Virus record (IMG/VR): IMGVR_UViG_3300035698_029931
Location: 24,949 to 88,948 of that record
Length of the DNA stretch: 64,000 bases
Strand: one strand, 5' to 3'
Source of the DNA: a virus
The translations under genes were made by a program, and so were the position numbers. Under the pieces are notes generated by a model. The model was not told the DNA's origin, did no database searches, and saw only the letters and a list, made by a program, of their open reading frames with translations. This document shows, piece after piece, positions 17,900-34,530 of the stretch (positions are counted from its first letter, which is position 1; each line of letters starts with the position of its first letter).

Positions 17900-17906
17900 A
17901 GATCAA
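17894..17906 (-). promoter_or_regulatory. boxA-like antitermination sequence
   Basis: TTGATCTTTAACA on the minus strand differs by one base from the core of the E. coli rrn boxA (TGCTCTTTAACA). It contains the TGA stop of rtcB and runs straight into RNA element 1. Confidence 0.5.
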
Positions 17907-19096
17907 CCTTTAATAACTGCCAATGGTTGTAATTTAGTTACAATCTCAACTAAGTCTCGTTGATTTTCCATGACTTCATCGATATTTTTATAAGCTCCAG
18001 CTGCTTCATCAAGATCAGAAACATTTCTAATGGAATGAATAATTCCCTGATCATTTAATATTTTCATTTCATGTTCTAGGTTCAATTCTCTCTGCGCTTG
18101 TTTGCGGCCCATTGTTCTACCGGCACCGTGACTGCACGACTTGAAGGAATCTTTATTTCCTAATCCCCTAACGATATATGAAGACGTTCCTTGAGAGCCC
18201 GGAATAATACCCAATTCACCTTCATAAGCCCTTGTTGCTCCTTTCCTATGCACCATTACATTGCTTCCGAAATGATTTTCCATAGCCGCATAATTATGAG
18301 CGATGTTTATCATTGGACACGTATCCATGATTGTAACCATTCCATTTTTTACAAGCCCGACTCTAAATTCCTCAACAATTCTATCCATCATTAATCTGCG
18401 ATTTGCCTTTGCAAACTCAACGCAATACTCCATTTCTTTTCTATATAGATTTGCTTCGTCTGTATTTATCGGTAGAAAATTAAGTTCCCATGAGTCCGGA
18501 ATAAAGCTGTGCCATTCGCTATTAAGTTCCATCGCTAACTTATTGTAATATTTCGCAACCTTGTAGCCTAAATTACGACTTCCGCTATGAATCATAACCC
18601 ATATAAACCCATCTGATCCTTTTTGAATCTCTATGAAATGATTACCACCACCAAGAGTGCCTAATTGCTTACGAGCAGAATCGTAATTAGAATTTACGAT
18701 CTTCATTTCCGTTACAATTGGAAGGTCCGGCATTAATCTATCGTCCTGCTGTTCTTTCTGATGCTCAAAGCCGACCGGAACAACCTCTCTTATACGGCCC
18801 AATATTCTTTTAATATCATCGACTTCTATATGTTTTAAAGATGTTCTAACAGCAGACATTCCGCACCCAATATCTACGCCTACAAAATTTGGGACTATTG
18901 CTCTTTGAGATGCCATTACGCCACCAATAGGTGCGCCATATCCCTGATGTCCGTCCGGCATTAACGCAACATGATGAAATGCGAACGGCAGAGAAGCTGC
19001 GTTCTCAATTTGACTTAACGCACCATCCTCCATTGATCCTTCTTTTGACCATATCTTTATTGGCAACACGCACTTACCTGGCTTATAAATATACAT
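17903..19096 (-). CDS. rtcB: RNA-splicing ligase RtcB
   Basis: 397 aa, close to E. coli RtcB (408 aa). It joins RNA ends carrying 2',3'-cyclic phosphate (or 3'-phosphate) to 5'-OH ends using GTP and manganese. Family motifs in order: MPDGHQGYG, VGVDIGCGM (metal-binding Cys), GTLGGGNHFIEI, MIHSGSRN, HNYA, VHRKGATRA, and SHGAGR, whose His is the guanylylation site. It seems intact. RBS AAAGGGGAT upstream. It is flanked by tRNA-like RNA elements on both sides, so a role in tRNA/RNA repair or in maturing these RNAs is suggested. No archease gene is visible nearby. Confidence 0.93.
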   Translation of the reverse strand: MYIYKPGKCVLPIKIWSKEGSMEDGALSQIENAASLPFAFHHVALMPDGHQGYGAPIGGVMASQRAIVPNFVGVDIGCGMSAVRTSLKHIEVDDIKRILGRIREVVPVGFEHQKEQQDDRLMPDLPIVTEMKIVNSNYDSARKQLGTLGGGNHFIEIQKGSDGFIWVMIHSGSRNLGYKVAKYYNKLAMELNSEWHSFIPDSWELNFLPINTDEANLYRKEMEYCVEFAKANRRLMMDRIVEEFRVGLVKNGMVTIMDTCPMINIAHNYAAMENHFGSNVMVHRKGATRAYEGELGIIPGSQGTSSYIVRGLGNKDSFKSCSHGAGRTMGRKQAQRELNLEHEMKILNDQGIIHSIRNVSDLDEAAGAYKNIDEVMENQRDLVEIVTKLQPLAVIKG

Positions 19097-19982: not shown

Positions 19983-20005
19983 TCAACCCTCCCTTTTTAA
20001 ATTTG

Positions 20006-20078
20006 TGCTCCCAGCGGGATTTGAACCCACAATCCTCAGCGTGAAAAGCTGATGGCCTAACCATTAGCCCATGGGAGC
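20006..20078 (-). tRNA. tRNA-Glu (anticodon UUC)
   Basis: 73 nt with complete cloverleaf on the minus strand: acceptor GCTCCCA/TGGGAGC, D-arm GGCT-AATGGTTA-GGCC, anticodon arm TCAGC-TTTTCAC-GCTGA with anticodon TTC, variable GGATT, T-arm GTGGG-TTCAAAT-CCCGC. Discriminator A; CCA is not encoded. It lies 9 nt downstream of the helicase stop, so it is probably cut from the same transcript. Confidence 0.95.
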
Positions 20079-22995: not shown

Positions 22996-23050
22996 TGGCA
23001 GGTGGATTGGGGGTCGTTGATTTTCCATCCCCCAAGTGCGACCCTCATCC
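22996..23050 (+). promoter_or_regulatory. Chaperonin 5' leader with competing hairpins
   Basis: TTGGGGG (23007-23013) can pair with CCCCCAA (23029-23035), or GGGTCG (23011-23016) with CGACCC (23039-23044). Both stems use the same G run and exclude each other. The leader ends about 35 nt before the RBS AGGAGG. A switch or thermosensor is possible but unproven. Confidence 0.4.
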
Positions 23051-23089
23051 GCTTGTCATAAAATCGATAATAACATCATAGGAGGTCAA

Positions 23090-24811
23090 ATGGAGTCTGT
23101 AAAAGCAAAAAGGATAGTTTCTAAGCAGAGGTTTCGTGATTTGGTGATTCAAGGTGTGGGCATTTTATCAGAACCTGTAGTTGCCACATTAGGCCCAGAG
23201 GGTTTGCCAATCTTGATTCAAAGAGATGGAGCTCCGCCGTTTTTTACAAAAGACGGTGTAACAGTGGCTCGTCATACAAAAGTCAAAAATCCGTTGCTTG
23301 ATACGATAATCACTTCATTAAAAGAAAGTTCTGAAAAAACTAATGAAAAAGTTGGTGATGGAACAACAACCGCAGTGGCTTTGTCTGCCGCTATTATTCG
23401 TGAGGGGATGAAACAGATAAAATCTGGAATTGTCACTCCACAAGAATTGGTTAATGGTATTCGTAAATTAGGAGATCTGTTTCCAGCTGTTTTAGAAAAA
23501 TGGGTAAGAAAGATAAAGACAAAAGAGGAGCAGCACAATGTTGCTTATATATCAGCTAATAATGATAAAGTCATTGCAGATAAAGTTGTGGAAGCTGTTG
23601 AGATGGCAGGGGAAGACGGTTATGTTTCGCTTGAAGATGGTACTTCAAAAGAAATTAAGGTTCAGTTTGTTGAGGGATATACTTTATCGTCTGGGTGGTC
23701 TAATATCGGAGCTTATGGGACTACTTTTGTTAATAATTCTCAAAAAAATTCAGTGGACATATTGAAGCCAGCGATTCTTTTATATGATGGAGTTGTTTCT
23801 GATGTCAATGATTTGGCTAATTTCTACATTGCTTTAACAAACAACGGGACTAGACCGATTCCATTATTAATAATAGCTCATAATTTTGAGGGCGAAGCAC
23901 TTAATATGCTTATTCTCAATAAGCGTGCTGGTCAAATTGTTGGGCTTGCAAAAGTTCCTTATTTGTCAACCATCAGTAGTCGTCGTTGGCTTTTAGATGA
24001 TTTGGCAGCTTTGACGGGTGGTAAGGTTGTTGAGCATGATTCTAATGGTATTATGAAGGGAGTTTTTAGTGGTGAAAAAGTTAAGACCCTTAATGAAGGG
24101 GTGTTGGGGTGTTGTGATAAAGTGGTTATTGGTAAAAAAGATACGATAATTTATGGTGGTCATAGTGATGATGAAGAAAAGATCAAGTACAGTGACACTT
24201 TGAGAGGACAGTTGCCGGATGCTGAAAGTGAATCGGAGTTTGATGTTGATTTGATCAAAACTCGTTTATCTAAAATGTTTGGTGGTATAGTGGAAATTCA
24301 GGTGGGCGGTTCTACTGAATTGGAGGTTAGAGAGAAAAAGTACAGGGTTGAAGATGCACTCAATGCGACGCGTGCTGCAACTGAAATGGGTGTAGTTCCT
24401 GGTGGTGGGATTGTTTTTTTCAATCTAGCAGAAATTTTCTTAAAAGATTATTTAAGAGATAATGTTCATATGGCAATAGCTATTAAAGTCATGAAAGAAG
24501 CGTTAAAAGATCCCCTTAGAATTATATTGTCAAACGCTGATATTAAACCTGATGAGATAATCGGTGATCTTTTAAAGACAGTGCGGTCGCACCCTCTCAG
24601 GGGTTATGATGCGAAAAAGAAGGTTTTAGTGGAGAATATGATGGATGCAGGGATTATGGATCCTCTTAAGGTGTCAATTTTGGCTCTTAGAAGTGCGATT
24701 TCAATATCTTGTGAATTATTGTGTGGTGGTGGAATGTTGGCTTTTGATGAAGGCACTGACAATCCTTCACAATCTGACTTTTATGTTAATGAATCCAATC
24801 AGGAGGTGTAG
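23090..24811 (+). CDS. groEL: GroEL-like chaperonin (Cpn60)
   Basis: 573 aa from ATG 23090, chosen for the RBS AGGAGG at 23080-23085 (the open frame extends upstream). Cellular GroEL has about 545 aa. Key motifs: VVATLGPEGLP, ATP-binding GDGTTTA (about residue 88), GEALNMLILN, EDALNATRAATEMGVVPGGG, which holds the ATPase Asp. The end is acidic rather than a GGM tail. It should fold phage proteins such as capsid or polymerase. No GroES gene is seen in the window. Two start-region frames overlapping it are shadows. Confidence 0.93.
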   Translation: MESVKAKRIVSKQRFRDLVIQGVGILSEPVVATLGPEGLPILIQRDGAPPFFTKDGVTVARHTKVKNPLLDTIITSLKESSEKTNEKVGDGTTTAVALSAAIIREGMKQIKSGIVTPQELVNGIRKLGDLFPAVLEKWVRKIKTKEEQHNVAYISANNDKVIADKVVEAVEMAGEDGYVSLEDGTSKEIKVQFVEGYTLSSGWSNIGAYGTTFVNNSQKNSVDILKPAILLYDGVVSDVNDLANFYIALTNNGTRPIPLLIIAHNFEGEALNMLILNKRAGQIVGLAKVPYLSTISSRRWLLDDLAALTGGKVVEHDSNGIMKGVFSGEKVKTLNEGVLGCCDKVVIGKKDTIIYGGHSDDEEKIKYSDTLRGQLPDAESESEFDVDLIKTRLSKMFGGIVEIQVGGSTELEVREKKYRVEDALNATRAATEMGVVPGGGIVFFNLAEIFLKDYLRDNVHMAIAIKVMKEALKDPLRIILSNADIKPDEIIGDLLKTVRSHPLRGYDAKKKVLVENMMDAGIMDPLKVSILALRSAISISCELLCGGGMLAFDEGTDNPSQSDFYVNESNQEV

Positions 24812-25124: not shown

Positions 25125-25334
25125 ATGGTTAAAGAGTGTAAGCATGACATATTGATAGCGATTTCTCAGGAGGATGAAAAGTTTTTGTGTTTTGATAAAA
25201 CAAGGAGGTACAAGTGTCAGTTGTGCAGTAAGGAGATTTTGATTTTACAATATGAAGTGCGTGAATATAATGAAAGAAAATTGGAAGATGATGATAGGCA
25301 GTTAAATCTTTTTGAAAAGGAGGAAGTGAAATGA
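25125..25334 (+). CDS. Small Cys-containing protein
   Basis: 69 aa. CKH near the start and a CQLCSK motif in the middle could bind one zinc. The C-terminus is acidic and contains RQLNLFEKEE; QLNLF resembles a sliding-clamp-binding peptide (QxxLF), notable because the clamp gene overlaps its stop codon (ATGA). Start ATG after TTAGGAG. Function unknown; interaction with the clamp is inference. Confidence 0.6.
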   Translation: MVKECKHDILIAISQEDEKFLCFDKTRRYKCQLCSKEILILQYEVREYNERKLEDDDRQLNLFEKEEVK

Positions 25335-26032
25335 AAGTAAAATCGTTGATATTTAAAGATTATTTAAGGCAGTCATGTATGGCAGGATCAGCAGCAGTTG
25401 GAGAATGTTTTCTTGATTTTAAGGATGAGGGTGTTGAGTTGTTGACAGTTACTGCAGCGAATAATGTTATGGTTAATTCATTTTTGTTAAAGAAAAATTT
25501 TGAAGAATACGAAGTGTTTGGTAAAATTGGGATAGACAATCTATCCAACTTGATGAAGTTGCTTGAACGTATTGAGAGCGAACATATTGCTGTTGAGAAA
25601 AAAGATAACAATTTGTTGTGTTTTAAGGGTGGTAATAAAAAGATTGAATTTCTATTGAAAGATCCTGAATATATTGAAGCACCTCCAACAGTTCCAAATG
25701 ATTTATCTCATGATATTTCAATAAAATTAAATCCTGACCAAATTCGGGAATTCCTTAACGATGTTTCGGCATTGAGTGCAGATGAGATTTTGTTTACCAC
25801 AGAATCTGGGAAACTATTGTTGGTGGCTTTAGGTCAACATAAAATACGCAACAAGATTGATGTTGATATTGACGGTGAACTCAATGCAAAGTTCACTTCC
25901 CTTTTAGTTGATGCTATTGGCAATCTTACGGGTAACATTAAGGTTGATTTAAAAAATGATTATCCGGTTTTATTTAGCACAGATTTGAATGCTAATGGAT
26001 TTATTAAAATTTTAGTAGCTCCAAAAGCGTAA
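25331..26032 (+). CDS. Sliding clamp, gp45/PCNA-like
   Basis: 233 aa, close to T4 gp45 (228 aa). The two-domain repeat is apparent: GVELLTVTAANNVMVNSFLL (about 35-54) and DEILFTTESGKLLLVALGQHKIRNKI (about 152-177). The clamp encircles DNA and tethers the polymerase. It begins within the stop of the preceding gene (ATGA) and precedes both clamp-loader genes, as in T4 (45-44-62). A second, DnaN-type clamp is encoded at 55532. Confidence 0.75.
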   Translation: MKVKSLIFKDYLRQSCMAGSAAVGECFLDFKDEGVELLTVTAANNVMVNSFLLKKNFEEYEVFGKIGIDNLSNLMKLLERIESEHIAVEKKDNNLLCFKGGNKKIEFLLKDPEYIEAPPTVPNDLSHDISIKLNPDQIREFLNDVSALSADEILFTTESGKLLLVALGQHKIRNKIDVDIDGELNAKFTSLLVDAIGNLTGNIKVDLKNDYPVLFSTDLNANGFIKILVAPKA

Positions 26033-26225: not shown

Positions 26226-27149
26226 ATGCGACTAAAAGATTGTGTTTTTGTTGAAAAATATCGTCCCAAGTCTATTGCTGATATAGCGGGGAAAAGTAAG
26301 ACGTTTCTTTCTTCTTATTTGGAGAAGAATGAATTACTTCCCCACTTCTTATTTTATAGTACTTTTCCAGGAACTGGTAAAACATCGTTGGCGAAGGCTT
26401 TTGTCAATGATTTGGGTTGTGATATTTTATTACTCAACAGTTCTGATGAACGTAAGATAGACGTTGTACGAGAGAAAGTGAAAATGTTTGCTAGTTCTGT
26501 ATCTAGTAAGCAAGGTAAGAAGAAGTGTATATTTCTTGATGAGGCAGACGGTTTGACACGGCAGAGTCAGGATGCATTGCGAAATGTGATGGAAACTTAT
26601 AGTAAAAATTGTTTTTTTATACTTTCTTGCAATTATATCAATAAGATTATTGATCCGCTAAAAAGTCGTTGCATTCTAGTTGATTTTTCAAAATGTTTTA
26701 ATAAAAAAGAAGTTTGTTCGTATATATCAAAAATAGTTCAAGAAGAGAGTTTGAATGAATTGGGTGTTAACGATGAAGTCGTGGAAAAAGTTGTGGAAAT
26801 GTACAGGCCGAATGTTCGCAATATGGTTATGTTTTTGCAAAGAGTTAAGGTTTCAGGTGCAGAAGTTGTTGGAGAGATTTTAAACAAGGATGTTTATGAT
26901 TCTTTTTGGGATCTTTTTAAAGAAAAGAAGTTTGCATCTATAGGAAAATTGTTGGCTGAAAATGATTTAGATGTTGAGTTGATCAATAAGTGGTTGTTTG
27001 ATAAGGCGATAGAAAATTCAAAAGAATTGGGGGTTAAAAGACTTATCAAAACTATCAGAATAATTGCTGAGAATGAAAGAGATTTTGTTTCAGGCGCGGA
27101 TAAGAATTTAATTTTCCGTTGCGGTATTTTTAGTATGATGATTGGATAA
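26226..27149 (+). CDS. Clamp loader large subunit, gp44/RFC-like
   Basis: 307 aa AAA+ ATPase. VEKYRPKSIADIAG at the start, Walker A FPGTGKTS (about residue 45), Walker B FLDEADGL (about 104), sensor ILSCNYINKII, and SRC arginine-finger motif (KSRCILVDF). This is the RFC-small/gp44 pattern. It loads the sliding clamp at primer ends. Immediately followed by the small subunit gene. Length fits gp44 (319 aa). Confidence 0.9.
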   Translation: MRLKDCVFVEKYRPKSIADIAGKSKTFLSSYLEKNELLPHFLFYSTFPGTGKTSLAKAFVNDLGCDILLLNSSDERKIDVVREKVKMFASSVSSKQGKKKCIFLDEADGLTRQSQDALRNVMETYSKNCFFILSCNYINKIIDPLKSRCILVDFSKCFNKKEVCSYISKIVQEESLNELGVNDEVVEKVVEMYRPNVRNMVMFLQRVKVSGAEVVGEILNKDVYDSFWDLFKEKKFASIGKLLAENDLDVELINKWLFDKAIENSKELGVKRLIKTIRIIAENERDFVSGADKNLIFRCGIFSMMIG

Positions 27150-27579: not shown

Positions 27580-27904
27580 TTTTGTGAACCTTGATTCAGG
27601 GTACAAAGAAAAAATGAGTCGGCTTGAAAGGTTGAAAAAAAGGTTTTCTGAATCTTTACCTGAAAATATAGCAAAATATAAGGCCCAAGAAATTGTTTTA
27701 ACATCTGATAAGTTGGAGAGTGTTAAGCTAAATGCCAATAATCATGCAGGATTAAGACCTAGTTTAGCTTTTTATTTTGAAAATGCAGAAGAAATTAAAA
27801 TGGTAGCAAAATATTTCAATACAAGTTTTAAGCAAATGGCAGTGAAAGATTCCGGTTTGTTAATTGAGATTATTAAAATGTTGGAGGAAACGAAAAATGG
27901 ATAA
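27566..27904 (+). CDS. Hypothetical protein of replication operon
   Basis: 112 aa, basic first half (YKEKMSRLERLKKRFSESLPENIAKYKAQEIVL) then a compact alpha/beta part (RPSLAFYFENAEEIKMVAKYF). RBS TAGGAGG lies inside the end of the preceding gene, which it overlaps by 14 nt. It overlaps the next gene by 8 nt. T4 has translation repressor regA at this place after gene 62 (122 aa), but residues typical of RegA were not recognised, so that is only a suggestion. Confidence 0.5.
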   Translation: MSLNNFVNLDSGYKEKMSRLERLKKRFSESLPENIAKYKAQEIVLTSDKLESVKLNANNHAGLRPSLAFYFENAEEIKMVAKYFNTSFKQMAVKDSGLLIEIIKMLEETKNG

Positions 27905-29306
27905 GAATAATTGTGAGATAGACAGCATGGAAAATTCTTGTGATTTGAGAGAAGAAGAGAATTGGGATTTTGATACAAAAGAAAGGTATGGAAGTCCACG
28001 AGTAAGTTCTGAATATATGGATTGTTCTTTGCCATTGACTTTTGATCAATATTCGTATTGTTCTATGAAGTGCAAATATTGTTTTGCATATTATCAAAAA
28101 GCGATGAATCCGTCTATGCGTTCTGGGATAAAATTAAAGGGGGTTAATGTAGACAAATTGATTAAAATGTTTAAAGGGGAAATACCTGAAGACCCATATT
28201 ATCATAATTTTATTAAAAAGAAGTTCCCATTCCATTGGGGTGGCCTTGCTGATCCGTTTGATATGGTTGAAAAAAAATATAAACTTGGTTTTAAATTATT
28301 GGAAACTTTGGTGGAATTGAATTATCCAGTTATATTTTCTACAAAAGGAACATTACCCTCACAAGAACCCTATTATTCTTTGTTTAAGAATGCTGCAAAA
28401 AATAAGAATTTTGCATTTCAGTTCAGTATTATTGCTAATTCCGATGAGTTATCGAAAAAGATAGATGTTGCAGTTCCGACAACTTCTGAAAGATTACAGT
28501 GCATGAAAACAATGTCAGATTTAGGTTATTGGACTGTATTAAGATTAAGACCTTTTATAGTTGGAATAAGTGATATTGATGTAGAAGAGCTTATAACCCG
28601 TTCTTCTCAAAATGGTGCGAATGCTATTTCCACTGAATTTTATTGTTATGATGCTAGATGTTCAAATAATGTAGAAATAGCAAAAAGATTTAAGGAAATA
28701 TCGCAAATATGTGGTTTTGATATCATCGATTTTTACAAAAAGTTAAGCCCTTCTGAGCGAGGTGGTTATAGGAGATTGAATAGAAATCTTAAAGAAGAGT
28801 ATGTGAAAAGAATGTATACAACCTGTAAGAAGGTTGGTATGCAATTCAATATTTCGGATCCAGATTTTAAAGAACTTAATGACAGCGGTTCTTGTTGTGG
28901 TTTGCCTGAATTAAGGGAACAGTATGACAGTGATTTGGTTAATTGGTCTCGTGGGCAATTAACTTATCATCTCAAGGAATTACGTAAAAGATATTGGGCA
29001 AGTGGAGGTAAAGAAAGGTATTTAAAGATTCGTGATGTGATGGGAGATTCTTATGATGGTTGGTTAAAAGAACCGCGTTTTTATAGTGATAGTCTTAAAA
29101 ATTGGGCAACTTCTTGGGCAAAAGTTAATATGGGTTATAGAGACGAATTCATACAAACATGGAATAATACCAGGAGTTCTGGTAATCCGTACAATTATTT
29201 TCATGGTAAGATTAAACCTTCTTATATTGATGATGATAATAATGTTGTTTTTGAGTATGTTCCCCATGATTATGAGAAGAGGTGGAAAGAAGAAGGGATA
29301 TTGTAA
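27897..29306 (+). CDS. Radical SAM enzyme, SplB-like
   Basis: 469 aa from ATG 27897 (GGAGGAAACG upstream). The cluster-binding motif is CSMKCKYC (CX3CX2C, about residues 55-62). Next come HWGGLADPF, VIFSTKG, a FSIIA strand and TSERLQCM, the pattern of spore-photoproduct-lyase/SplB-like radical SAM proteins. Further Cys residues occur late (CYDARC, GSCCGLP) and may bind a second cluster. Such enzymes act on nucleic acid bases. Known thymidine-hypermodification pathways also use a radical SAM enzyme. First gene of the candidate DNA-modification operon. Confidence 0.8.
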   Translation: MDKNNCEIDSMENSCDLREEENWDFDTKERYGSPRVSSEYMDCSLPLTFDQYSYCSMKCKYCFAYYQKAMNPSMRSGIKLKGVNVDKLIKMFKGEIPEDPYYHNFIKKKFPFHWGGLADPFDMVEKKYKLGFKLLETLVELNYPVIFSTKGTLPSQEPYYSLFKNAAKNKNFAFQFSIIANSDELSKKIDVAVPTTSERLQCMKTMSDLGYWTVLRLRPFIVGISDIDVEELITRSSQNGANAISTEFYCYDARCSNNVEIAKRFKEISQICGFDIIDFYKKLSPSERGGYRRLNRNLKEEYVKRMYTTCKKVGMQFNISDPDFKELNDSGSCCGLPELREQYDSDLVNWSRGQLTYHLKELRKRYWASGGKERYLKIRDVMGDSYDGWLKEPRFYSDSLKNWATSWAKVNMGYRDEFIQTWNNTRSSGNPYNYFHGKIKPSYIDDDNNVVFEYVPHDYEKRWKEEGIL

Positions 29307-30044
29307 ATGGGAATAAAATATTGTAGGTCTTGTTGTCAAATGACTAGTCACGGTTTAAATGACAGGTGTTTAAAGTGCGGAAAAAATAATTTAATTCAAA
29401 AAAATATATTGGGGGAAGAATGTTGGGTTAGAAAAGATACTTGGGATGAAAATATTTTTAAAGAAATGGGATTGTATTTGAAAAAGATTTCTTTAACTCC
29501 TGAGGATGTCTGGCTGGATGTAGGCGGTAACATAGGGAGTTTTTGTAAAAAAATTGCCAAAGAAGTTGCCACTGTTATTGCTTATGAGCCAGATGAAAAT
29601 AATTTTGAACTTTTAAAGAAAAATAATGAAGAAAGTGATAATATTATTTTTGTAAATAAAGCTGTTATTGGAAATGCTGATATTGTGAGGGATTTTTATT
29701 TGAATCAAAAAACCAATAAGAGTACACATTCTTTTTTTGTTAAACGTGGAAGGGAACGCGTTGAGGTTGGATGTGAGAATGTTAATGAGATAATTCAAAA
29801 GTATAAAGTTGATAAAATAAAAATTGATTGTGAGGGGAGTGAGTACGAAATCATAAAATCTATTGTTGATTTTTCTTCAATTAAAGAAATATTTGTGGAA
29901 TTTCATTTAAATATTTTATGTAAAAAGAATGATTTAACTAAGTACAGGGAAGTTATTAAAATCCTTAAAAAGAATTTTGCGTATTTGGAGTATCCGGAGG
30001 ATGTTAAAAAAAATTGGCATGTTTATATTTATGTGAAAAAATAA
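29307..30044 (+). CDS. FkbM-type methyltransferase with zinc-ribbon N-terminus
   Basis: 245 aa. Residues about 6-26 hold a Cys motif (CRSCCQM ... CLKCGK), a small zinc ribbon. The rest is a SAM-dependent Rossmann methyltransferase of FkbM type: VWLDVGGNIGSF (SAM-binding), VIAYEPDENNF and KIDCEGSEYEII. FkbM enzymes usually methylate sugar hydroxyls; in this operon the target might be a modified base. The ATG follows the previous stop without a gap and the next gene starts directly after it. Confidence 0.8.
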   Translation: MGIKYCRSCCQMTSHGLNDRCLKCGKNNLIQKNILGEECWVRKDTWDENIFKEMGLYLKKISLTPEDVWLDVGGNIGSFCKKIAKEVATVIAYEPDENNFELLKKNNEESDNIIFVNKAVIGNADIVRDFYLNQKTNKSTHSFFVKRGRERVEVGCENVNEIIQKYKVDKIKIDCEGSEYEIIKSIVDFSSIKEIFVEFHLNILCKKNDLTKYREVIKILKKNFAYLEYPEDVKKNWHVYIYVKK

Positions 30045-31214
30045 ATGAGATATATACATTCACAAAATAAAGATAAAGAATTTATCGATTGGAGAAACCC
30101 TTCTAGAAGGAAAGAAGGGTTTTTAAAGTGGTTAAAATGGAGAATGCGGTATGGAGATTTGGACCATTACGTTTGTAATAATTCCTACAGGGATGCAATT
30201 GGCAAAATGTCTCCAACTGGTAAATCAATGACTAAGGAGCAGGCGCATTGGTTTTCTTTAATTTTTGGTATGACTTATCAATCAGAAATGGCGTGGGTTA
30301 TTTATTGGAATTTTCCTGATTTTTGGTCTATCAACATTGAAGAGTTAGAAAAATGGAATTTGGATAATATTGATCGACAAAGGTATGCTCGTGATACTAA
30401 ATATAATAAAGGGAGGATCGTTAGTCAAGTCAAGTCCCTCCAAAATGAAATTGGTCCTTCCGGTTCTATTGAAAAGTTTTTTGGTGAATCATTGAGTGAT
30501 GATGAAAATGAGTCTTTTGAAAAAGTTTTTAATTCTTGTATGAGGTTTCATAAGTATGGAGGTATGACTTCTTGGTTGACTTGTCAGTTGTTATTCGAAA
30601 CTGCCAATGTACCGATTAAACCTGACACCGTCAGAGCCACCACACCTTGGAATTGGTCAGTAAGGTCGGGTTTGATGTATGCTTATAATAGGGACGATAA
30701 GATTGAAGCTACTTGTAAGGATGTTGAGTTTTGTGATAAAGATATTGAACAAATAAAAGAGTATGAAAAAGAGTTGTATGAGTTAGCGAAAGATTGTATT
30801 GATGAAAATGATAAAAAGATTTTTTCAAATTATTTATTAGAATCTCATTTGTGTCAATATAAAAAGTTAATGTTAGGAGGTGATTATGCTGGTCATTCTT
30901 CTGGAGATCACTTTTCAAGGGCACTTTGGTTATCTGAACGGTGGCCTGAAGTAAATTTTGATGTATTTTTTAAAGAAGCAATAAAAAAACATTGTCCGAT
31001 TGTAAGGGGAAAAAGGGAGAGTAAACAGCTTCGGTTTGTTTGTTCTAAGACAGGTCAGATGATAAATATGCATGAGGACTTTCAGGAATTGCCTAATATG
31101 TATTTGGAATTGGGAATAAATCCTGATTGGTTTTATACTAAAGAATATGACGAAGAAGTGGGAAGTAGAGTTGATAGTTATGCAAATAAAATTTATAATT
31201 CTAATTGGTGGTGA
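30045..31214 (+). CDS. Amino acid:DNA transferase-like protein
   Basis: 389 aa, helical, many Trp and Tyr. The stretch EQAHWFSLIFGMTYQSEMAWVIYWNFPDFW (about residues 65-94), then RYARDTKYNKGRIVSQV, and later MTSWLTCQLLFETANVPIKPDT with SGLMYA, follows the pattern I remember for phage amino acid:DNA transferases (aGPT-PPlase group). These replace the pyrophosphate of activated 5-hydroxymethyl-deoxyuridine in DNA by an amino acid. A P-loop kinase, the expected partner, lies 880 nt downstream. Family assignment is by eye. Confidence 0.6.
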   Translation: MRYIHSQNKDKEFIDWRNPSRRKEGFLKWLKWRMRYGDLDHYVCNNSYRDAIGKMSPTGKSMTKEQAHWFSLIFGMTYQSEMAWVIYWNFPDFWSINIEELEKWNLDNIDRQRYARDTKYNKGRIVSQVKSLQNEIGPSGSIEKFFGESLSDDENESFEKVFNSCMRFHKYGGMTSWLTCQLLFETANVPIKPDTVRATTPWNWSVRSGLMYAYNRDDKIEATCKDVEFCDKDIEQIKEYEKELYELAKDCIDENDKKIFSNYLLESHLCQYKKLMLGGDYAGHSSGDHFSRALWLSERWPEVNFDVFFKEAIKKHCPIVRGKRESKQLRFVCSKTGQMINMHEDFQELPNMYLELGINPDWFYTKEYDEEVGSRVDSYANKIYNSNWW

Positions 31215-31228
31215 AAGGAAGGGGTAAA

Positions 31229-31606
31229 ATGATTAACACTTATGATCTTGATGGGGTTGTTTATTTAGGAGATGATTATGATGGTATTTATCCAGGTAGA
31301 GAAGACATCATTATAACGGGGAGAAGTATTGAGGAAGCGAAGTCTACGCATGAAATGTTGAGGTTGAGGTGCATTTATAGTCATGTGTTTTTTAACCCAA
31401 TTCCATTCAGTGCAAAAACTAGAGAATCTTCTGGTTATCATAAAGTTAATGTGATTAAAATGTTGATTGAAAGCGGTTATGAACATGGCCTTCATTTTGA
31501 TGATGATGAAATTCAGATCAAAATAATCAAAGAGCTCCTTCCCAATGTTCGTGTTGTGCATGTAGTTTCTGATATTGTTGAGAAGGAAAATGTTAGACAT
31601 GATTGA
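31229..31606 (+). CDS. HAD-family phosphatase-like protein
   Basis: 125 aa from ATG 31229 (RBS GGAAGGGG). HAD motifs: YDLDGVVYLG (nucleophile Asp and acid Asp), IIITGRS, a Lys at HKVNVIKM, and HFDDDEIQI. No cap domain, so the substrate may be a polymer end or nucleotide. In the modification operon a phosphatase could trim a phosphorylated intermediate; that is inference. T4 polynucleotide kinase-phosphatase has a similar phosphatase domain. Confidence 0.7.
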   Translation: MINTYDLDGVVYLGDDYDGIYPGREDIIITGRSIEEAKSTHEMLRLRCIYSHVFFNPIPFSAKTRESSGYHKVNVIKMLIESGYEHGLHFDDDEIQIKIIKELLPNVRVVHVVSDIVEKENVRHD

Positions 31607-31613
31607 GGGCAAA

Positions 31614-32099
31614 ATGTTAGAAATAGAAAAGAGAATAGTTATTGAACCTGAAAGTGTTGTTTGGAATCAGAAGGTAAAGGAGTGGTGCGGTCTTCCGTAT
31701 TATGATAAAAAAAATGGATGTCCAAATTTCAATAAACGTAAGGGATGTCCGATGGATAATAAGAATATAGATGAAATTTTAGATGTCAATAAAAAAACTT
31801 ATATTGTGGGTGTTGTTTTTAATTTAAAAGAATATCGCGATGAAATGAAGAAAAAACATTCAAATTGGACATATCGACAATTAAACAATGTGATATATTG
31901 GCAAGGATCAATTTTTGGAAAAATGAAAAGGGAAGTCAATAAGTTTTCATTGATGAATCCTGGTTTAAAAATTGTTTATAAGCCAGAAGCATATGGAGTT
32001 AATTTAACAAAGATGTTATTGAATTCGGGTGTTCCGATAAACTGGAAGTACCCGTTGAGAAAGATTTATATTGTGGCGTTATTAGGAGGAAAAATATGA
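31614..32099 (+). CDS. Cys-cluster protein of the modification operon
   Basis: 161 aa from ATG 31614 (GAGGG upstream; in-frame ATG at 31590 is an alternative). The N-terminal third has WCGLPYYDKKNGCPNFNKRKG followed by CPM, a three-Cys cluster suited to an Fe-S or metal site. The rest is alpha/beta (TYIVGVVFNLKEY ... LRKIYIVALLGGKI). It resembles small metal-binding proteins sometimes found beside radical SAM enzymes, but no named family is claimed. Overlaps the kinase gene by 4 nt. Confidence 0.55.
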   Translation: MLEIEKRIVIEPESVVWNQKVKEWCGLPYYDKKNGCPNFNKRKGCPMDNKNIDEILDVNKKTYIVGVVFNLKEYRDEMKKKHSNWTYRQLNNVIYWQGSIFGKMKREVNKFSLMNPGLKIVYKPEAYGVNLTKMLLNSGVPINWKYPLRKIYIVALLGGKI

Positions 32100-32614
32100 A
32101 AGAATTTATTGCAGTTATTGGTCAAAGTGCATGTGGTAAAACAACATTTGTTCAAAATGAATTTATTGGGGCAAATGAGATGGTGTTAAATAAAGATCCA
32201 CTTTTACATACTGTTGTTAATGATTGTTGTTTATTGGGGGATTATGTTACGTCTGTGAGGACAAAAGGTACTGACAGGTTTTCTTATTCTATTTTACCAG
32301 ATTTGATTGAGTTTATAAAAAATAAAAAAGATGAATACAATCGTTTTGTCGCAGAAGGTGATAGAATAAATTGTGAAAGATTCTTCCAGTCTTTAAAAGA
32401 TTTGAAATTGAATGTTACGGTTTATGTTTTTTTATGTGATGTTAATTTGAGCGTTCAGCGTAGAGTTGATTCTGGTTCAAAACCTTCAGAGCAATTTGTA
32501 AGGGCAACTCAAACTAAAACTTTAAGAATGAAAAAAATGGTAGAATCTTTAGGGTTTAAAGTTATTGTTGAAGATTCTAGAACAGAAAACAATATCAAAC
32601 ATGGATGGTGGTGA
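32096..32614 (+). CDS. P-loop kinase, candidate 5-hydroxymethyluracil DNA kinase
   Basis: 172 aa. Walker A GQSACGKTT (about residues 9-17), a DRIN motif at about 90, VYVFLCDVNLSVQRRVDSG and a Arg-containing lid-like segment (RATQTKTLRMKK) give a nucleotide-kinase fold. In phages with hypermodified thymidine a P-loop kinase phosphorylates 5-hmdU in DNA before amino acid transfer; its neighbour here is the transferase-like gene. A T4 PNK-like end-repair kinase is the alternative, especially with the HAD gene close by. Confidence 0.6.
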   Translation: MKEFIAVIGQSACGKTTFVQNEFIGANEMVLNKDPLLHTVVNDCCLLGDYVTSVRTKGTDRFSYSILPDLIEFIKNKKDEYNRFVAEGDRINCERFFQSLKDLKLNVTVYVFLCDVNLSVQRRVDSGSKPSEQFVRATQTKTLRMKKMVESLGFKVIVEDSRTENNIKHGWW

Positions 32615-32617
32615 CTT

Positions 32618-32998
32618 ATGCGTGAAGAACTTGAAGCAAAAATGTTTTGTCAATTATTATATAAAGAGGGGTATGTTGAAGGTACGTCTGGTAATTTAAG
32701 TTTTAGAGATAGAAGTAGAGTTAAAATAACTCGTACAGGTTGTACATTGGATGATCCATTTTTTGTTGATACAGAAAGTTTTGAGGCTTCATCTGATGTT
32801 AATTTACATAAAGAAATTTATCGATTGACGGATAGTGATTGGATTTTTCATGTTCATAAAGACCTTAAATTAAAATTTCTTTTGACAGATAAAGATTTGG
32901 ATCTTCATTGGTTTAATGTAAGAGATCATGGGGTTTGGGTTGGATGTGGAGTTGATATAAAAATTTATAGAATTCTTGAAGATGAGGGAATTTTATAA
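32618..32998 (+). CDS. Class II aldolase/adducin-like protein, short
   Basis: 126 aa; usual members have about 200. It shows YVEGTSGNLSFRD, the GTSGN(L)S phosphate-binding motif, and SSDVNLHKEIYR, with FHVHK as the remaining metal-His motif. Family members cleave carbon-carbon bonds with a divalent metal. The C-terminal region with the last His (about residue 105, RDHGVWVG) seems present in short form. It ends the candidate hypermodification operon. Substrate unknown. Confidence 0.7.
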   Translation: MREELEAKMFCQLLYKEGYVEGTSGNLSFRDRSRVKITRTGCTLDDPFFVDTESFEASSDVNLHKEIYRLTDSDWIFHVHKDLKLKFLLTDKDLDLHWFNVRDHGVWVGCGVDIKIYRILEDEGIL

Positions 32999-33075: not shown

Positions 33076-34530
33076 ATGAATTTAGACAACAGATTTCCGT
33101 TCGAGTTGGCCCTGCAAAGAACTATTTTAAAAGTAATGTTCAAAAACGAAACATTTTTTTTAAAATGTATGTCGCATTTGAAAAGTGAATATTTTGAGAA
33201 TCAATATTTATCTTGGCTTTATAAACTTATTGTTAGTTATTATAAAGAATACAAAACACTTCCATCAATGGAAACTGTTAGAAATGAAATATTGAAGTTT
33301 GAAGTTAAGGATCGAATATTGTATGAGAAAGTTTATGATGATATATTGGCAACTGACTACAAGGATTTGGAATATCTTTATCATGAATTGACTGGGTTTG
33401 CAAAGAGAGCTTATTTTGTTGACAATATAAAGCGAACCTTAAGTCTTTATAATGAAGGTAATCGCAATAATGCATATCGTCATATGAAGGAGTTTTCTCA
33501 AAGTTTGTCGGAAATAGATTTTGAAGAAAGTGACTTATTTGATTATTCGAATTTGTTTCCATTATTGGAAGGTCTTCGTTCTCCGAAATTTAGAATGCCA
33601 CTATCTATAAAACCTTTTGACGAAGTTATGGCTGGGGGGATGCCAAAAGGTCGGTTGATGTTGATATTGGCAGGCGTGAGTCAAGGTAAGTCGATGGTTT
33701 TAACTAATTTGGGGAAAAATTTTATTCAAAAAGATAAGAAGGTGTTGTTTATTACGTTGGAGAATCCAGAGGATGAGCAAATAACTCGTTTTTTGTCTCC
33801 TATGACGGATATATCTCAAGATGATTTTAATAAAAGAGAATTGACTGATGATGAAAAAGTCAAGGTTATAATGGCGAAGGAAAAGATGGAAAAGAATCTG
33901 TTTTTAAAAAGTTGGTATGAAGATTCCTTGACTATTGAACATATTGTTAATTATTGTAAAGTGAGACATGCAATGGATCCGTATGACGTTTTAATTATAG
34001 ATTACGTCCAGTTGATTAAACAAAGGGCATCGGAGCGCATGCGTGACCTGTGGGCTATCCAGGGTGATATTGTGAAGGGTTTGCAGAATTTAGCAAGGAA
34101 TTTGAATATTTGCGTTATAAGTGCTGCTCAGATCAATAGGTCAGCAATGCAAAAGACTCGCAAGAGTAAAGGGTTCAAAGATTTGACTCGGATGACTGAT
34201 GTTGGTGAATCTTATAATCAAGTTAAGATAGCCGATATTGTTCTTACTTTAACTGTTTCAGATGCTGATTATAAGAATAGTGTTATGCGAATGTTGTTGG
34301 ATAAACATCGTGGGGGTGAAAAAGGTATCTTGGTTGAGGTTGAGGTTGATTTTCCAACTCAAAAAATATTCAGTCCGGATTTGCGATGTAGAAAGTTGAA
34401 ATGGTCAGATGCACTTAATCCCTCAGGAAATAGAGATCCAAAAGATTTGGATGAAGAACCTGAGAGTGAAGAAAGCGGGACTGATAATGTGAAGGTGTCG
34501 GAGGCTGAAATTGAAAAACTCTTATCATAA
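33076..34530 (+). CDS. Replicative DNA helicase, DnaB/gp41-like
   Basis: 484 aa RecA-fold helicase. N-terminal DnaB-like helical domain (FPFELALQRTILKVM), Walker A AGVSQGKS (about residue 198), VLFITLENPEDEQ, Walker B VLIIDYVQL, and motif DnaB-4 (CVISAAQINR). It unwinds DNA ahead of the fork and binds primase. The C-terminal tail is acidic (DLDEEPESEESGTD). Overlaps the primase gene by 20 nt. Confidence 0.92.
   Translation: MNLDNRFPFELALQRTILKVMFKNETFFLKCMSHLKSEYFENQYLSWLYKLIVSYYKEYKTLPSMETVRNEILKFEVKDRILYEKVYDDILATDYKDLEYLYHELTGFAKRAYFVDNIKRTLSLYNEGNRNNAYRHMKEFSQSLSEIDFEESDLFDYSNLFPLLEGLRSPKFRMPLSIKPFDEVMAGGMPKGRLMLILAGVSQGKSMVLTNLGKNFIQKDKKVLFITLENPEDEQITRFLSPMTDISQDDFNKRELTDDEKVKVIMAKEKMEKNLFLKSWYEDSLTIEHIVNYCKVRHAMDPYDVLIIDYVQLIKQRASERMRDLWAIQGDIVKGLQNLARNLNICVISAAQINRSAMQKTRKSKGFKDLTRMTDVGESYNQVKIADIVLTLTVSDADYKNSVMRMLLDKHRGGEKGILVEVEVDFPTQKIFSPDLRCRKLKWSDALNPSGNRDPKDLDEEPESEESGTDNVKVSEAEIEKLLS

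Follow-up and report, generated by a model that had tools for sequence, protein, structure and literature searches.

The window analysed here, a 64,000-base stretch spanning positions 24949-88948 of a virus record 88,948 bases long (IMG/VR IMGVR_UViG_3300035698_029931), carries at 27897-32998 a compact operon of seven plus-strand genes, set between clamp-loader and replicative helicase genes. In order, these encode a radical S-adenosylmethionine (SAM) protein (27897-29306), an FkbM-family SAM methyltransferase (29307-30044), a DNA-base transferase of the AADT/PUGT type (30045-31214), a small HAD phosphatase (31229-31606), a DUF2284-like protein (31590-32099, overlapping the HAD gene), a P-loop kinase (32096-32614) and a short class II aldolase-like protein (32618-32998). 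The intergenic distances range from +14 to -17 bases, and ribosome-binding-like purine stretches precede several of the starts. An earlier, sequence-only reading had described seven tightly packed genes between clamp-loader and helicase genes and had proposed that they hypermodify thymidine in DNA; the layout is as it claimed, and profile searches agree with its family assignment for each of the seven genes. We consider it likely that the phage uses this operon to create in its own DNA, by the route set out below, a hypermodified pyrimidine that most likely derives from thymine, and its role is very probably to attach a small molecule to a DNA base and thereby disguise the genome.

The 389-residue transferase passes the cut-off of the Pfam ADDT model PF18724 (1.7e-15, 57.9 bits vs. 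a cut-off of 26.2), in keeping with its earlier placement among the amino acid:DNA transferases (AADT), and that model also scores M6 gp51, which is closely related to the PaMx11 glycinyltransferase of known structure. An AlphaFold model built with 26 relatives reached a pLDDT of 94. In Foldseek it has confident Protein Data Bank (PDB) matches to two entries only, 8z2n and 8z2m, both of the PaMx11 5-phosphomethyl-2'-deoxyuridine glycinyltransferase (gp46/PUGT; E 6e-3, probability 1.00, TM 0.47/0.61), the next PDB entry having a probability of 0.06; ADDT-domain proteins head the named matches among predicted viral structures. The likeness to gp46/PUGT is one of overall fold, whereas sequence identity is ~10% and the window protein is ~100 residues longer. 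In a tree of 39 transferases it is nested, together with the viral loci L084, L043 and L053, in a clade linked to inositol-1-phosphate synthase (MIPS) and TET/JBP dioxygenases, with support of 99/96. Relatives with up to 69% identity were found in viral contigs and in Caulobacter phage Cr30, and none in bacterial and archaeal genomes.

Judged by its sequence, the 172-residue kinase is a remote relative of the 5-hydroxymethyl-deoxyuridine (5-hmdU) DNA kinases that retains both the Walker A motif (GQSACGKT) and the EG motif (EGDR). It matches the PHROG family phrog_800 at 8.9e-7, which holds M6 gp54 and ViI orf67, both named 5-hmdU DNA kinase (PF18748) in Pfam, and comparison of its own small family with the M6/ViI kinases gives an hhalign probability of 95.8 (E 7.7e-9). 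The kinase profile check thus places the protein remotely in the M6 gp54/ViI orf67 family, short of a PF18748 match; its close relatives belong to PF18751, P-loop nucleotide kinase 3 (1e-19). M6 gp54 and ViI orf67 are reportedly the kinases that have been tested experimentally (Lee et al. 2018). As a side observation, the label "terminase small subunit", used for phrog_800 in PHROGs and in sequence records, actually covers known or likely 5-hmdU DNA kinases, mislabelled examples being NC_015296 38203-38865, NC_007809 41685-42248 and the kinase of NC_025422. In phages M6, ViI and W-14 a 5hmdU DNA kinase acts first and further transferases follow (PMC6449724).

The methyltransferase (PF05050, 2.9e-13; TIGR01444, 1.7e-20, above its cut-off) begins with a CxxC...CxxC zinc-ribbon-like stretch, and its homologues sit immediately 5' of the transferase in many relatives. 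The HAD phosphatase, capless and 125 residues long, was assigned from phrog_415 (6.6e-6), its model and an alignment of 33 sequences in which the motif residues D6, D8, T30, K72, D92 and D93 are all invariant; the model (pLDDT 92) has the T4 Pnkp 3'-phosphatase fold among its top structural matches. The sequence-only reading had taken both enzymes, along with the aldolase, as additions to a known core. Across 68 nonredundant transferase loci, FkbM and HAD are instead regular partners of this transferase clade and parts of a recurrent module, and it is the aldolase that occurs in no other sampled member.

That module has the order TET/JBP - FkbM or glycosyltransferase - transferase - MIPS - HAD - kinase, and the same partners recur across the 68 loci, with TET/JBP the usual first enzyme and ThyA present in a few. 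Among the 28 loci whose flanks each exceed 3.5 kb (the window phage is in the 68 but outside the 28 because it entered via shorter loci), MIPS is present in 27, HAD in 24, TET/JBP in 22, the kinase in 21, FkbM and a glycosyltransferase in 7 each and ThyA in 4, the sole well-flanked locus devoid of MIPS being that of the ViI-type phage PC3. HAD associates with MIPS more than with any other gene: the two adjoin in 87 of 97 HAD loci, a set that includes several copies of the window locus. The module’s MIPS matches PF01658 and reaches ~1e-100 against TIGR03450, yet under that model’s cut-off, and its TET/JBP dioxygenase is PF12851. The window HAD and kinase share up to 65% and 25-32% identity, respectively, with those of the module.

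Several observations concern the module in its own right. In Cr30 the neighbor of the transferase is a TET-associated glycosyltransferase-like gene (PF20691, 8.5e-4), and the first gene of the Cr30 module, AGS81014 (L002 5942-7270), encodes a TET/JBP dioxygenase (PF12851, 8.7e-23) despite its annotation as "putative SNF2 DNA repair protein"; UvsW helicase is likewise a wrong label for the gene 5' of FkbM, which is TET/JBP by PF12851. In one relative (L034 5116-6300) a TnpB-like open reading frame (ORF) of the IS200/IS605 type, recognized by sequence, lies between the kinase and FkbM-AADT-MIPS. A second arrangement (L058, L072, L083, L092 and similar loci) combines a ThyA homologue, a dCMP deaminase-like protein, MIPS, HAD, an HMUDK_hel-like protein (c7) and a ~360-residue protein (c14, phrog_13881), so that it too retains the MIPS-HAD pair; c14 and c7 are fused in phrog_17781, and some of these loci carry c24, by eye resembling a DNA C5-methyltransferase. 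Profile comparison showed no link that would make these ThyA-route loci, through c7 and c14, another AADT type. In Stenotrophomonas phage Moby (L125 7589-9324) the MIPS-HAD pair adjoins the QueC/TGT/QueE 7-deazaguanine genes, a profile search of the Moby genome returned no AADT-clade transferase, and inositol may there serve another DNA decoration.

Against this background the window operon differs both in what it lacks and in what it carries in addition. The MIPS position between transferase and HAD is empty, and the radical SAM gene occupies the TET/JBP position, directly upstream of FkbM. A second contig of the same phage, 109,218 bases long (109 kb below), is identical across the 21 kb compared and reaches, by coordinates, ~20 kb further left; all seven genes, even the short aldolase, are therefore not specific to a single assembly, although both contigs share the same end base and thus may not be independent samples. 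This contig is linear and incomplete, so that absences from it are provisional and lost genes could lie outside. Within the 109 kb we found neither MIPS (PF01658, with the module’s own hidden Markov model also negative; PF01658 is present in five other records) nor TET/JBP (PF12851, present in 6 of 10 records). ThyA (PF00303), ThyX (PF02511) and dCMP deaminase are also missing from it, as is the M6-type pyridoxal phosphate (PLP) enzyme (gp52, PF00291), which was found in the M6 control; HMUDK_hel (PF18723) is absent from the 89-kb and 109-kb records and present in the control phage PC3. The dUMP hydroxymethylase and dUTPase that the sequence-only reading had suggested seeking elsewhere in the genome were likewise not found in this incomplete contig. 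By descent, as far as sequence comparison tells, the operon is a rebuilt TET/JBP-FkbM-AADT-MIPS-HAD-kinase module, and the simplest history is one in which TET/JBP and MIPS were lost and three genes acquired.

The three unusual genes encode the radical SAM, DUF2284-like and aldolase-like proteins, which occur together with the transferase family in no other sampled member, the latter two flanking the kinase gene. The 469-residue radical SAM protein (PF04055, 3.5e-7) has its CxxxCxxC motif at Cys55/59/62 and belongs to the SplB-like PA0069 superfamily. PA0069 is its best family, with the NCBIfam model matched at 2.8e-16 and 59.5 bits, far under the cut-off of 360 bits; by sequence it matched no solved structure, SplB included, and neither phage records nor viral or genome contigs yielded a relative. 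With spore photoproduct lyase (SplB) it shares the radical SAM core and CxxxCxxC motif, short of sequence orthology. The PA0069/Rv2578c proteins share that core and are its best sequence match, whereas its longer C-terminal part has no counterpart in the two PA0069 proteins aligned. In pairwise comparison with the window protein, a bacterial PA0069 protein gives 66.6 bits and M6 gp53, itself roughly equidistant from all, gives 40.8. We therefore reject specific orthology to gp53, and the function of the M6 enzyme is not transferable to the window protein; the sequences suggest that the two radical SAM proteins may have been recruited separately. The SplB-type enzyme of the M6 route that the sequence-only reading saw here thus survives as a member of the broad superfamily but not of the gp53 line.

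The DUF2284-like protein (PF10050, 4.3e-6, 27.0 bits vs. a cut-off of 25) has cysteines at positions 33, 44 and 53 and is a putative metal- or iron-sulfur (Fe-S)-binding protein; it has no relatives in the sampled loci, plasmids or solved structures. The 126-residue aldolase-like protein (PF00596, 4.3e-8) matches PRK08660 at 2.5e-12, below the cut-off, with the PRK08660 and FucA models covering residues 10-81 or 10-98. Aligned with FucA, it retains the N-terminal phosphate-binding-type motif GTSGN and an HxH pair, and it stops shortly past DHG, by eye a possible third metal ligand, with ~50 internal residues apparently absent. We rejected the notion of a broken gene: dnaB begins after a gap of just 77 bases, and the second contig has the same sequence.

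Hypermodification of a DNA base, the core claim of the sequence-only reading, is well supported by the ADDT domain and glycinyltransferase fold, the 5-hmdU-kinase-family profile and the placement among replication genes. From the families, the fold, the descent of the transferase, its conserved neighborhood and the absences in the 109 kb we infer the chemical steps, the base and the donor as follows. The P-loop kinase would phosphorylate the 5-substituent of a hydroxymethyl or otherwise activated base in DNA, the transferase would swap the phosphate for a small nucleophile, and FkbM would O-methylate the attached group. HAD could remove a phosphate to ready the donor, as its tie to MIPS suggests, or could clear unreacted phosphate. 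The radical SAM protein, perhaps aided by the Fe-S-like DUF2284 protein, might activate the base in TET/JBP’s stead or rearrange the attached group, as the M6 radical SAM enzyme is believed to do, and the aldolase is a candidate donor supplier now that MIPS is gone. The ViI base, 5-(2-aminoethoxy)methyl-dU, is an ether and thus sets a precedent for an oxygen nucleophile among enzymes of this class, and the presence of MIPS in relatives makes an inositol-type polyol the plainest guess for the donor of the ancestral module. An amino-acid donor is conjectural in the window phage, whose nearest relatives carry MIPS and no recognized amino-acid enzymes.

Several points weigh against this route to a hypermodified pyrimidine. 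The incomplete 109-kb record offers no source of a hydroxymethyl base, ThyA, ThyX and TET/JBP all being absent from it. The kinase is remote, with no direct match to PF18748 and only E 0.1 to PF18751. Compared with M6 gp51 alone, the profile of the transferase clade is weak (probability 0.9%), so that it is the Pfam model and the fold that argue for AADT membership, even though that comparison aligns an E-x3-C-x2-K motif (E266, C270 and K273/274 in the window protein). Finally, the sequence does not fix the donor or the order of steps.

A tentative alternative follows M6 itself, with the kinase phosphorylating 5-hmdU, the transferase adding glycine or another amino acid, the radical SAM protein isomerizing the adduct and the extra enzymes trimming or methylating it. 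The operon has the same three enzyme classes as M6 gp51, gp53 and gp54, its transferase fold matches a glycinyltransferase, and a radical SAM protein is there while the inositol enzyme is absent. Yet that protein is nearer bacterial PA0069 than gp53, and the closest relatives of the transferase accompany MIPS and TET/JBP, not amino-acid enzymes. The M6/ViI amino-acid route of the sequence-only reading thereby keeps its kinase-like and AADT/PUGT-type enzymes but wants, in the 109 kb, its PLP enzyme, HMUDK_hel, ThyA/ThyX, dUTPase and dCMP deaminase.

It is unlikely, in our estimate, that the operon still yields the product of its relatives, an inositol-type group, for which the host or the unsequenced part of the phage would supply inositol phosphate and the hydroxymethyl base and to which the three unusual genes would be late add-ons. 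Transferase, FkbM, HAD and kinase are kept, HAD is tied to MIPS even in Moby, where AADT is lacking, and the contigs are incomplete. Conversely, MIPS and TET/JBP, adjacent genes in the relatives, are both gone from the cluster and the 109 kb, the operon itself incorporates the three new genes, and inositol on the relatives’ DNA is itself a prediction.

Rather improbable is a radical SAM protein that, in the phage of a putatively anaerobic host, takes over from TET/JBP and opens the pathway by activating the methyl group of thymine without oxygen. Besides its position immediately 5' of FkbM and the absence of TET/JBP, a dioxygenase that requires O2, SplB-like enzymes carry out thymine methyl chemistry, as in spore photoproduct lyase; but gene position by itself is weak evidence, and we know of no radical SAM enzyme that hydroxylates thymine in DNA. 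We would give similarly long odds to a wholesale conversion by which a module that depended on TET/JBP and MIPS, and possibly added inositol, came to work without oxygen; in it the radical SAM protein would activate the thymine methyl or rewire the adduct, an aldolase-derived polyol would serve as donor and FkbM methylation would complete a base unlike any described. That the operon decorates a glycan, a tail fiber or the nucleotide pool is highly improbable: although sugar pathways often employ enzymes of the FkbM, aldolase and HAD classes, and glycosyltransferase-like ORFs lie at the contig’s left end, proteins of the AADT/PUGT fold and the 5-hmdU-kinase family, so far as is known, act specifically on DNA bases, and the relatives’ clusters contain TET/JBP, within a replication-gene setting.

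That setting comprises, upstream, a T4 gp45-like clamp (25331-26032), the clamp-loader large subunit (26226-27149, plus strand; 32% identity to the Cr30 gp44 homologue) and a small-subunit-like gene and, downstream, a DnaB-like replicative helicase identified from its ORF and sequence (33076-34530, plus strand) followed by primase and DnaE genes; the DnaB-like helicase cluster recurs near the module in other phages. No near DNA matches to the window were found in phage records. Elsewhere in the window, a 591-residue GroEL-like chaperonin (23036-24811) lies just 5' of the replication genes, and a minus-strand patch at ~16-23 kb contains an RtcB-like RNA ligase ORF (17903-19096) near a tRNA-Glu gene (20005-20078), both on the minus strand. 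To the left of the window, in the same phage record, L011 1090-12653 is, by eye, dense in glycosyltransferase-, methyltransferase-, sulfotransferase- and APS-kinase-like ORFs.

By hypermodifying their DNA, phages protect it from restriction and CRISPR nucleases, and these modifications also supply new enzymes that act on DNA. A glycinyltransferase-fold enzyme tied to MIPS in dozens of phages, including the culturable Cr30, points to cyclitol or polyol DNA decorations, a class for which we found no report in the literature searched. Nor did that literature hold a paper joining inositol synthesis to phage DNA modification, though a prior prediction is possible; a Stenotrophomonas phage paper lists MIPS as a bacterial-like gene and gives it no role (PMC9025141). 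The window phage is a natural experiment in this respect, having kept the core, lost the oxygenase and the inositol enzyme and gained a radical SAM protein.

With the thymidine clusters of M6 and PaMx11 (Pseudomonas) and ViI (Salmonella), the window operon shares the AADT domain and fold, a remotely related kinase, a broadly SplB/PA0069-type radical SAM protein and a location near replication genes. In contrast to them, the window phage has no ThyA hydroxymethylase, HMUDK_hel or PLP enzyme in the 109 kb, its transferase falls in a separate MIPS-linked clade and, to our knowledge, its FkbM, HAD, DUF2284 and aldolase proteins have no counterparts in those clusters. The operon would work like the M6/ViI pathway and yet, with several defining parts not found, should not be classed as a member. 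The Cr30-type module, known from Cr30 and about 60 further viral loci, shares with it the FkbM-AADT-HAD-kinase order and the replication neighborhood; it differs in having TET/JBP and MIPS, while the radical SAM, DUF2284 and aldolase genes are found only in the window phage. The operon is a variant of this module, which is itself common and appears largely undescribed.

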